Notes under the pieces: model-generated
Told to the model about the DNA's origin: nothing
Databases searched by the model: none
The model's input: the letters and a program-made list of their open reading frames with translations, nothing else
Program-made: the position numbers and the translations under genes
Virus record (IMG/VR): IMGVR_UViG_3300028925_009492
Location: 1-27,738 of that record
Strand: one strand, 5' to 3'
Length of the DNA stretch: 27,738 nt
Source of the DNA: a virus
Part shown: positions 16,133 through 26,612 of the stretch, piece by piece
How positions within the stretch are numbered: the first letter of the stretch is position 1
Layout: every line of letters begins with the position of its first letter

Positions 16133-16354
16133 ATGGATCGTAACTATTTATCATACGGCTCTGACCGTATCGACGACGCAGACTTACTTAAAATAGAGGC
16201 AGACTTAGACGACATGACGGCAATATGCCAAGAGCTGCAATTCTTGCGGCACAGTGACGATGAGTTACGCGAAGAGCTCGACGCGCTGCATAAAGAGGTG
16301 CAGCTCTTGTTTGATAGTTTGGAGGGAACGCTGTCGTTCAAGTTAGATGGCTGA
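16133..16354 (+). CDS. Acidic coiled-coil protein of unknown function
   Basis: 73 residues from ATG 16133 with GGAG 6 nt upstream. A TTG 12 nt upstream overlaps the ribosome binding site and is rejected. It is rich in Asp, Glu and Leu with heptad-like spacing over residues 17-65, so one or two long helices are likely. It is the first gene behind the palindromic promoter and overlaps the DUF3310 gene by 8 nt. Confidence 0.7.
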   Translation: MDRNYLSYGSDRIDDADLLKIEADLDDMTAICQELQFLRHSDDELREELDALHKEVQLLFDSLEGTLSFKLDG

Positions 16355-16691
16355 GTGCGAGTATTGCCATGGGAACCATTACTATCGGTTCCGTGACGAG
16401 ACGGTCCCTTGTGGCTACTGCGCGGGTAGTAGTACCTTCTCAGGTCAATACGACGACGGCTACAGTCCCGACGACGACGGCTACAGTCCCGACGACGACG
16501 TCAACCACCCTGAGCACTATAACTTGGGACAGGAGCCGTTCCCGTTCATTGAGAGCTGGGGCATGTCGTTTGCTGAGGGCTGCGTCATTAAGTACGTGGT
16601 GCGTCACAAGCATAAGGGCGGGCTAAAGGACCTAAAGAAGGCAGCGTGGTACTTGAACAAGCTGATTGAGAGCTATGATGACGAGACGTGA
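16347..16691 (+). CDS. DUF3310 protein with N-terminal zinc ribbon
   Basis: 114 residues. Residues 1-25 hold two CxxC pairs (C4, C7 and C22, C25), a zinc-ribbon pattern. Residues 38-51 are a duplicated GYSPDDD encoded by a 21-bp tandem repeat. From residue 52, VNHPEHYN, then FIESWGMSFAEGCVIKYVVR and LKDLKKAAWYLNKLIES match DUF3310, a common phage early family with no proven activity (it has been called nucleotide-kinase-like). The zinc ribbon joined by a repeat linker is the odd part. Confidence 0.85.
   Translation: MAECEYCHGNHYYRFRDETVPCGYCAGSSTFSGQYDDGYSPDDDGYSPDDDVNHPEHYNLGQEPFPFIESWGMSFAEGCVIKYVVRHKHKGGLKDLKKAAWYLNKLIESYDDET
16452..16499 (+). repeat. 21-bp tandem repeat in the DUF3310 gene
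   Basis: Two full copies (16452-16472 and 16473-16493) plus six matching bases. It encodes the acidic (GYSPDDD)2 linker. Such in-frame repeats can change copy number by slippage without breaking the frame. Confidence 0.85.
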
Positions 16692-19411: not shown

Positions 19412-19441
19412 CAATGTGTGCACCCTAGAAAGGATAATAAA

Positions 19442-19753
19442 ATGACTATCTATAGACACCCACCCGCAACTAAGAAACTTATCCTCGACCTCATCGAAAC
19501 GGGGTTGAGCAATAGTGATGTTGCCAGAGAAGTTAACAAGCAGCTGCGCGGGACACTAAACCGGCTCTTAACGAAGAACGCGGTTATCGGGATTAAGAAC
19601 AGAGCAGGGTTGTGCGCCCCCCGCGACCCAAGATTTTACCCTAAAACCCGCAAGAACAGCTACGATAAATCTGTGGCGTTCAACGAACACGTAGAGAAGG
19701 TCCCTTACGCACAGAAAGTTAAAAAAAGATTACTCGCAGCACTTGCACTCTGA
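19442..19753 (+). CDS. GcrA-like regulator
   Basis: 103 residues from ATG 19442 (AAAGGATAATAAA upstream). Residues 10-57 show KKLILDLIETGLSNSDVARE followed by TKNAVIGIKNRAGL, closely matching the GcrA N-terminal DNA-binding domain, whose hallmark is T-R/K-N-A-V-I-G-K-x-x-R-x-G-L. In Alphaproteobacteria GcrA works with sigma-70 at CcrM-methylated GANTC promoters. The C-terminal part is short and basic and differs from the cellular sigma-binding region. It may redirect host or phage transcription. A basic residue usually seen after VIG is Ile here. Confidence 0.7.
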   Translation: MTIYRHPPATKKLILDLIETGLSNSDVAREVNKQLRGTLNRLLTKNAVIGIKNRAGLCAPRDPRFYPKTRKNSYDKSVAFNEHVEKVPYAQKVKKRLLAALAL

Positions 19754-25036: not shown

Positions 25037-25420
25037 ATGACACGGAGGAAAGGCGAATCAAGAGAATCATACTTGGCACGAAAACGCGCTTACAACGATT
25101 GTACCTCCGACAAGCGAGCCGTGTACCGTGCTGCCAACAAGGAGAAAATAGCAGACTACCAGAGGGCTAACCTAGATAAGAGGTCAGCCAACCAAGCCAA
25201 ACGCCGAGCCAATAAGATACAGGCGTGTGGACTTCTGACGCAGGTTATAAGTGATGAAGTTGAGGCTATCTACTCTGAGGTCCAGAAGATGGGGGCGGAC
25301 TACCATGTCGACCACATCATCCCGCTACAAGGGGAGAACGTCTGTGGTTTGCACGTTCCTTGGAACCTTCAGATCGTAAACGCTACTCTTAACTTAAGGA
25401 AGGGCAACGGGCTCAAGTGA
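25037..25420 (+). CDS. HNH endonuclease-like protein
   Basis: 127 residues. A very basic N-terminal half (many Arg, Lys and Ala) leads into DYHVDHIIPLQGENVCGLHV, then PWNLQIVNATLNLRKGN. DHI (H93), N110 and N119/N124 fit the beta-beta-alpha-metal HNH core. It starts one base after the helicase stop and has its own terminator. Stand-alone HNH genes like this can be homing-type mobile genes or replication/packaging nucleases; intron signs are absent. Confidence 0.85.
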   Translation: MTRRKGESRESYLARKRAYNDCTSDKRAVYRAANKEKIADYQRANLDKRSANQAKRRANKIQACGLLTQVISDEVEAIYSEVQKMGADYHVDHIIPLQGENVCGLHVPWNLQIVNATLNLRKGNGLK

Positions 25421-25446
25421 GGCGCTACGGGCCTGTTTTTTTTTTT
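25420..25446 (+). terminator. Terminator of the early/replication operon
   Basis: AGGC (25420-25423) and GCCT (25431-25434) form a short stem, followed by G and eleven T. It lies between the convergent HNH and Nfu genes; the T-run ends on the Nfu stop codon. The stem is short, so efficiency may be modest. Confidence 0.65.
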
Positions 25447-25709
25447 CAGTAATAAGGGTTAACTACTTCCCCGTCCTCATGTGATACACTTTCAACATCA
25501 TCTGGCAGGTATTCTTTAAGAGTTTGTTCTACCCCTAGTTTAAGAGTGAATGAACTGGCAGCACAACCTGCACATGATCCTGTTAATTTAACATGGACAT
25601 TCTTTTTTTCTTCATCGTAGGATAATAATTGTATGAGTCCACCATGTTGAGCTATGGTAGGAGAAATTACATCAGCTAAGATGTCTTCTATTTTAGCAAA
25701 TGTTGTCAT
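25446..25709 (-). CDS. NifU/Nfu-type Fe-S cluster scaffold protein
   Basis: 87 residues. The whole protein is a NifU C-terminal domain: ISPTIAQHGGLIQLLSYDEE, then VHVKLTGSCAGCAASSFTLK (CxxC at C46 and C49) and LGVEQTLKEYLPDDVESV. Known Nfu proteins bind a [4Fe-4S] cluster between two CxxC motifs in a dimer and deliver it to target enzymes. The usual D-G-G is H-G-G here. The gene is coupled to the lysozyme by ATGA, and is the last gene of the leftward late operon. It is visibly more AT-rich (about 37% G+C in a 120-bp sample) than most of the window, suggesting recent transfer. It may supply clusters to phage or host Fe-S enzymes. Confidence 0.88.
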   Translation of the reverse strand: MTTFAKIEDILADVISPTIAQHGGLIQLLSYDEEKKNVHVKLTGSCAGCAASSFTLKLGVEQTLKEYLPDDVESVSHEDGEVVNPYY

Positions 25710-26170
25710 TTTCTGTAGCCACCATCACTATCAAGGAAGAGTAGTCTTTCTGCCTCACGTCTACGTACTAGACCTTTTACGATCTTCCCACCGGCTCTAC
25801 GCCATTGCCAGAAGTTATTAGCACAGCCGACATAGTCGCCTCTGTTGAGCTTCTGGCGGAAGGTGGAAGATTGGAAATTTCCCCCACCAATGTTAAAGCA
25901 GATGGAGGTTAGCGCCGTGCGCTGGTTCTCATTTAAGGGAACTACAACCAGTTCTTCAATCTTTCTCTCAAAATATCGAACTTGTCGTGTGAGTAGAACG
26001 GTGGCTCTTTCGAAGGAAATAGGCTTATCAGAAATGTGGACCCTAGTGCCGTTAAGACGCCAAATAGAACCAAAACCGATAGTAGCGATGCCACCACTAT
26101 CCAAATAAGGCTCAGCGCTAAAGCCTTCGAATTTAGAAATAAACTTAACAGCTTGTTCGATATCATTCAC
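25706..26170 (-). CDS. Lysozyme (endolysin, glycoside hydrolase 24 type)
   Basis: I place the start at GTG 26168-26170 (GAGAG upstream), giving 154 residues. The upstream in-frame extension only covers holin codons. Catalytic residues match T4 lysozyme spacing: Glu15 (KFEGF), Asp24 (YLDSGG) and Thr30 (ATIGFG). There is no signal peptide, so release needs the holin encoded upstream. It overlaps the holin stop by 8 nt. It cleaves host peptidoglycan at lysis. Like its Nfu neighbour it is AT-richer. Confidence 0.9.
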   Translation of the reverse strand: MNDIEQAVKFISKFEGFSAEPYLDSGGIATIGFGSIWRLNGTRVHISDKPISFERATVLLTRQVRYFERKIEELVVVPLNENQRTALTSICFNIGGGNFQSSTFRQKLNRGDYVGCANNFWQWRRAGGKIVKGLVRRREAERLLFLDSDGGYRK

Positions 26171-26612
26171 TAAACTCTCTTTCCCGTTTGCGTATCTCAC
26201 GTGACGTGAAGAAGAAACCAACCATAGACCCTAGCAGCGCAAAATACTGATCGTCGAGGATTGATTGCAGAGCGTCGAGGGTCAGACCCTCAGTGCCTAT
26301 AATTACATAGGCGATCGCGTAATTGATGACCAGAAATTCGATAGCGAATAAGTATGTCAGTACAGGTCGTACAGACGTAGACAGCGTAGCCATCCATTTG
26401 GCCGATGCCCTGATACCTGTTGCTTGTTCCTTGTGAGCTGCAACGATCTCATGACCGTCAGCTACAACGATGGCCTCCTGAACCTTGCCTTCTTGGACAG
26501 CTGCCAGCATAGCCAGCTCGTGTTTCTTATCTTGCTTGTCCTGAAAGAAGTCTAGCACTTTTGGGGCCATACCAAACAGGCTACCAAGCGCGGTTGTGAT
26601 TAATGCTATCAT
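26163..26612 (-). CDS. Holin, three-TM (gene transfer agent-like) type
   Basis: 149 residues. The N-terminus MIALITTALGSLFGMAPKVL is hydrophobic, followed by a charged helical region. Two membrane segments lie near residues 82-104 (RPVLTYLFAIEFLVINYAIA) and 123-137 (YFALLGSMVGFFFTS), then a basic/acidic tail. The RP at the start of the second segment and GSMVGFFFTSR are marks of the 3TM holin family known from alphaproteobacterial GTAs. It sits directly upstream of lysozyme. Role: timed membrane hole formation. Confidence 0.82.
   Translation of the reverse strand: MIALITTALGSLFGMAPKVLDFFQDKQDKKHELAMLAAVQEGKVQEAIVVADGHEIVAAHKEQATGIRASAKWMATLSTSVRPVLTYLFAIEFLVINYAIAYVIIGTEGLTLDALQSILDDQYFALLGSMVGFFFTSREIRKREREFSE

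Follow-up and report, generated by a model that had tools for sequence, protein, structure and literature searches.

The closest described counterpart of the gene reported here is the nifU-like gene of Prochlorococcus phage P-SSM2 and other Kyanoviridae, which likewise encodes a single-domain protein with a CxxC motif in a lytic marine phage. The two differ in sequence (38% identity, on separate branches of the Nfu tree) and in location: the P-SSM2 gene lies near petE among accessory genes, while the gene described here lies at the end of a lysis operon. Iron-sulfur (Fe-S) assembly genes including nifU have been reported on marine viral contigs and read as host Fe-S support (PMC8940887, PMC7785012), and the available portions of those reports draw no link to a lysis operon or to phage-to-phage transfer. 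Auxiliary genes cross between unrelated marine phage families, as described for HTVC023P-type pelagiphages (PMC9599517); the main text of that study makes no mention of NifU, Nfu or Fe-S genes. Phage nifU genes, Fe-S assembly genes in marine viromes and cross-family transfer in pelagiphages are already known, and the new details here are a conserved operon-end slot and a scarred transfer. No description of a phage-only Nfu clade, of the operon-end slot, or of a bounded and scarred transfer was found among the open-access papers searched.

Full-length NfuA comprises a degenerate A-type N-terminal domain and an Nfu domain, and NifU proper comprises an IscU-like N-terminal domain, a ferredoxin domain and an Nfu domain. 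We analyzed a viral contig of 27,738 nucleotides (IMGVR_UViG_3300028925_009492), the whole of which is called the window below, and which carries a single-domain member of this family. The features relevant to this gene, nfu, are as follows.

25446..25709, minus strand: nfu, 87 aa, single-domain NifU/Nfu-type Fe-S carrier (PF01106 and AlphaFold model)
25563..25574, minus strand: CxxC motif of nfu (C46-A-G-C49), invariant in 11/11 aligned viral relatives
25706..25709, minus strand: ATGA overlap of the lysozyme stop and nfu start, from the sequence (nfu ATG at 25709)
25706..26221, minus strand: T4-type lysozyme (endolysin; PF00959, E 6e-37)
25709..25732, minus strand: 8-residue lysozyme tail DSDGGYRK, a donor-like C-terminus absent from homologues
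26163..26612, minus strand: holin-like gene before the lysozyme (phrog_6637, E 1.4e-16; GTA_holin_3TM, E 8.6e-4, below cut-off)
25406..25446, plus strand: terminator-like hairpin and T run closing the opposite (replication) operon (fold z -1.9)
25037..25420, plus strand: HNH/endonuclease VII-like gene converging on nfu (phrog_1035, E 2e-11)
25416..25725, minus strand: piece very probably imported, 87-90% nucleotide identity to AT-rich phages L002/L003/L004
19795..20922, plus strand: DUF2800 PD-(D/E)XK exonuclease, candidate Fe-S client (PF10926, 1e-45; PF12705, 8e-10)

The original prediction, made from the DNA letters alone, of an intact NifU/Nfu Fe-S scaffold domain with a CxxC motif was borne out. 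In a Pfam profile search the product matched PF01106 with an E-value of 4.6e-21 and 75.2 bits (cut-off 27) over profile positions 1-65 of 67, and it contains the motif GSCAGCAAS; the full-domain match, the CxxC and the Nfu alpha/beta fold together place it in this family. The AlphaFold model (pLDDT 86) superimposes on Arabidopsis CnfU (2z51) and human NFU1 (2m5o) with TM scores of 0.75-0.76 and rmsd of 1.3-1.6. These proteins have the fold and CxxC in common with the viral protein at 32-35% identity, but the viral protein has its own C-terminal tail, SHE-x-GE...PYY. Bacterial NfuA is resembled in the C-terminal Nfu domain and HGG motif, and the H-x-x-G ... (Y/F)Y ending is similar to those of Salmonella NfuA (YhgI) and a Maritalea protein; the N-terminal domain of bacterial NfuA is absent. 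Consistent with this, the product reached only 51 bits against the 269 required for full-length NfuA (TIGR03341, profile positions 108-177 of 190 only) and 40 bits against 273 for NifU proper (TIGR02000, 221-285 of 290 only). A search of the whole contig revealed no other NifU domain, and a two-domain NifU or a second Nfu was therefore rejected.

The CxxC lies within a block, N37-S52 (NVHVKLTGSCAGCAAS), that is invariant across the 11 aligned viral relatives, and by analogy with the family it is expected to be the cluster-binding site at a homodimer interface. Going by characterized members, the homodimer would hold one [4Fe-4S] cluster between its two CxxC motifs.

As first proposed, nfu closes the lysis operon, behind the lysozyme gene. 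The description of nfu as fused to the lysozyme by ATGA coupling holds for the ATGA but not for the fusion, the two being separate genes that share 4 bp. A simple scan found no promoter-like or nfu-specific terminator site above chance. The G+C content of nfu, said to be notably below that of the window, is 37.1% versus 50.8%, and its GC3 is 22% versus 42-65% in the other genes checked. It is the lowest 264-nt stretch: among 2748 segments of this length, only those over nfu (0.15%) were as AT-rich.

Two IMG/VR scans with nfu returned 16 contigs with proteins 54-93% identical, and a scan with a neighboring membrane-protein gene added others. The relatives of nfu sort into three gene contexts. 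Group A phages are AT-rich (GC about 0.32-0.40; the three longest contigs are 55-61 kb) and distantly related to pelagiphages HTVC023P/027P; in these, nfu closes a lysis cassette that encodes an M15 peptidase and a ~96-aa membrane protein, and converges on terminase small-subunit and holin genes. Group B contigs (L009, L011, L012) carry nfu after a ribonucleotide reductase gene, with a Cas4-type exonuclease in the gene run, and here nfu converges on a holin-like gene. The group C proteins are 54-56% identical to that of the window and also keep the CxxC, and most of their contigs are arranged as in group A. Judged from gene order, what the contexts share is a final position ahead of a convergent junction; lysis neighbors are common but not universal. 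Because the gene run around nfu in group B holds ribonucleotide reductase and Cas4-type exonuclease genes, a link between nfu and lysis need not be assumed.

Contigs found through the donor-type membrane gene, independent of nfu, numbered 67; 13 of these carry nfu, always on the same strand and within about 1 kb downstream of the membrane gene. The ~96-aa protein itself (L003 7711-8004) has an almost invariant core, FVELWPAG(K/R)WGSGSLPSDVRQDLKIG; it adjoins the lysis cassette in phages with nfu, and it is also found in contigs whose downstream genes are quite different.

To place the gene phylogenetically, a tree was built from 37 Nfu domains, 17 of which were viral rows. All 17 formed one virus-only clade (support 98/95; recovered in 98% of bootstrap trees), within which the window nfu stands beside those of L003 and L004. 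The P-SSM2-type cyanophage NifU branches elsewhere, suggesting that Nfu was acquired by phages probably at least twice. The nearest cellular rows are from Flavobacteriaceae, which were fetched with viral-motif patterns and thus form a biased sample; every match from a further draw of Bacteroidota sequences was weaker than these. The HGG and C-terminal H..G..YY motifs of the viral clade point to proteobacterial NfuA-like proteins. Contamination by host DNA, which the original prediction had proposed to check by phylogeny, is ruled out by the virus-only clade and by the phage flanks, and genes for the portal (head-tail adaptor), terminase and major head proteins are in the same contig. Loss of the CxxC in close relatives, named in advance as an outcome that would tell against the assignment, is not seen; the motif is retained in every viral relative. 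With phage genes around it and a place in a virus-only clade, nfu is a metabolic gene of host type carried by a true phage, and hence a putative auxiliary metabolic gene, a term that would further imply expression during infection and an altered host metabolism. It was indeed acquired, as had been suggested for a gene at this operon end, but its immediate source was another phage lineage and not a host.

The evidence for this source lies in the DNA. Similarity between the window and L002/L003/L004 is confined to about 310 bp, with both flanks unrelated, and this piece consists of nfu and the terminator of the convergent operon. The terminator-like hairpin of the opposite operon, reading GGCCCGTAG(A/C)GCCTCACT and followed by an A/T run, is common to the window, L003 and L004; since it belongs to the right end of the homologous stretch, it would have arrived together with nfu. 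The window phage is of another type than the donors, with a portal of phrog_332 and portal relatives 65-85% identical, and no NifU domain was found in 30 records of these portal relatives, many of which are fragments. In one relative with homologous lysozyme and holin genes (G001), the operon stops at the lysozyme and lacks nfu. Comparison of a lysozyme scan with the contigs from the nfu query gave no second viral contig with a lysozyme-nfu junction; the lysozyme scan produced no full-length homologue above 48% identity, and its contigs were absent from the nfu-query set. The window nfu is separated from its nearest sampled relatives by a dS of 0.4-0.56, and the exact donor is outside the sample. 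We consider it very probable that nfu encodes a stand-alone Nfu-type carrier that moved from phage to phage.

The end of the lysozyme gene may mark where this exchange began. All 25 lysozyme homologues stop 1-3 residues past the point at which the window tail begins, and in group A the membrane proteins encoded ahead of nfu, or of its slot, terminate in NGGYNRK, NGGGRK or NGGSRK with their stop codons within an ATGA. Among 2647 ORF tails from 12 genomes, the ending GG-x(1,2)-RK occurs only in the window lysozyme and two donor-type proteins, a motif that was picked after the tail had been seen and that spans a short stretch. A raw DNA test against the L003 gene alone was weak, as 73 of 2646 ORF ends score as high; against L004 four ORF ends do so, two of them from the terminus, in G033, of the donor-type membrane gene itself. 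We regard the tail as a likely recombination scar, with the left crossover in the donor's upstream membrane-protein gene; this reading is not proven, given the post hoc choice of motif and the shortness of the match.

The AT-rich donor lineage keeps nfu last in its lysis cassette. The crossover would have extended between the final codons of its lysis-linked membrane gene and a point shortly beyond the convergent terminator, with the left breakpoint placed from a short match and the rest read directly from the sequence. A crossover of this span would have landed nfu behind the lysozyme with the ATGA overlap and terminator in place, and the position in the lysis operon would be inherited from the donor lineage, not peculiar to the window phage. 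The HNH/endonuclease VII-like gene directly adjoins the imported piece, and a homing-type nuclease could have aided the crossover.

The donor-phage terminase is 40% identical to those of HTVC023P/027P and phage 023Pt_psg01, a distance at which a SAR11-like alphaproteobacterial donor host is only a hint. A 791-aa neighbor in the donor phages had no phage match. Elsewhere in the window, a small protein encoded at 19418-19753 (plus strand) is 55% identical to one in the donor-type G031 and 40% identical to one in G032, with no match among the window's own phage relatives, and is possibly a second gene exchanged between the two phage types. Its GcrA-like match (PF07750, E 0.0014) is weak, below cut-off, and would hint at an alphaproteobacterial host. 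A small CxxC-rich, zinc-ribbon-like protein at 16347-16691 (plus strand) has distant matches (35-43%) in G031, G032 and G033.

Comparison of the window nfu with that of L003 gave 24 synonymous and 6 nonsynonymous differences (dN/dS 0.055), and with that of L004 19 and 7 (dN/dS 0.089), indicating purifying selection on the gene; the window branch is short, and these ratios do not prove selection in the present host. By analogy with the family, the protein is probably an active Fe-S carrier, a reading we hold with good confidence. It would take clusters from the host assembly system and deliver them to Fe-S proteins being turned over in late infection, such as host metabolic or respiratory enzymes, with the phage's own Cas4-type nuclease possibly another recipient. 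We tentatively put forward host proteins as the main clients, in a general support of Fe-S metabolism late in infection. The suggestion that nfu serves virion proteins is unsupported, as nothing here links it to them. Overall, an Nfu carrier recombined in from an AT-rich phage lineage and providing late Fe-S supply is the best explanation of the data and a likely one.

The strongest competing reading, which we think possible but less probable than general support, is that the carrier mainly serves the phage's Cas4/AddB-type Fe-S exonuclease (DUF2800 here; phrog_1990 in other nfu phages). The expected Cas4-like protein is present in the window: the DUF2800 product belongs to phrog_69, matches PDDEXK_1 and has four cysteines, C17 and a CxxCx5C (C221, C224, C230). 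A CxxCx5C nuclease also occurs in three group A genomes and two group B contigs, which with the window makes every nfu phage group where such a gene could be sought, and in group B the nuclease, ribonucleotide reductase and nfu genes are on one strand in the same run. However, the same four cysteines are present in 4/4 relatives examined, none of which has a NifU match, so that a Cas4-type client is plausible but the motif is not discriminating. The group A nuclease has pelagiphage and roseophage relatives without an nfu match, and the late operon that holds nfu in the window and in group A lies away from the nuclease. Cysteines kept in nfu-less relatives, and relatives of the donor-type nuclease in many phages that gave no nfu match, favor general Fe-S support over the nuclease.

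It is unlikely that nfu is an operon-end passenger of little effect here, with the pre-terminator position a tolerated cargo slot. Other small genes do fill the same slot in relatives L170, L171 and L176, and nfu is absent from most contigs with the neighboring membrane gene, but the CxxC and core are invariant, dN/dS is below 0.1, and the gene is intact after transfer. We likewise doubt that a mobile "nfu plus terminator" piece is shared by several unrelated phages, placed repeatedly as the last element before a convergent late-operon junction. If this were true, Fe-S supply would be a late function under selection in different phage families, with a possible tie to the timing of lysis or to iron in the burst.

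That an assembler joined the nfu piece to the contig is very improbable. The arrangement is known from a single contig, and the piece and its flanks differ sharply in base composition and nearest relatives; a chimera would require two exact joins spaced by about 310 bp, each of them gene-compatible, in a piece 10-13% off the nearest known sequences, and the flanks are of one phage type, as G001-like relatives contain the replication genes together with the lysozyme. Least credible is a role of Nfu in lysis itself, for instance as a timer that responds to iron or redox state and is coupled to the endolysin or holin, for which we know of no precedent: the lysis-cassette end recurs in groups A and C and in the window, but group B nfu adjoins ribonucleotide reductase and Cas4 with no lysis genes, and the lysis genes that accompany nfu are not related to each other (an M15 peptidase in one case, a T4-type lysozyme in the other).

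Taken as a transferred Nfu carrier, the locus provides an unusually clean record of an auxiliary gene crossing phage families, with both edges of the piece marked and a probable scar in the endolysin. The recurrence of nfu at operon ends suggests a reason for small auxiliary genes to collect there: the terminator they need travels along. With a phage-only Nfu lineage evolving under purifying selection, late Fe-S supply in infected bacteria becomes a hypothesis that can be tested.
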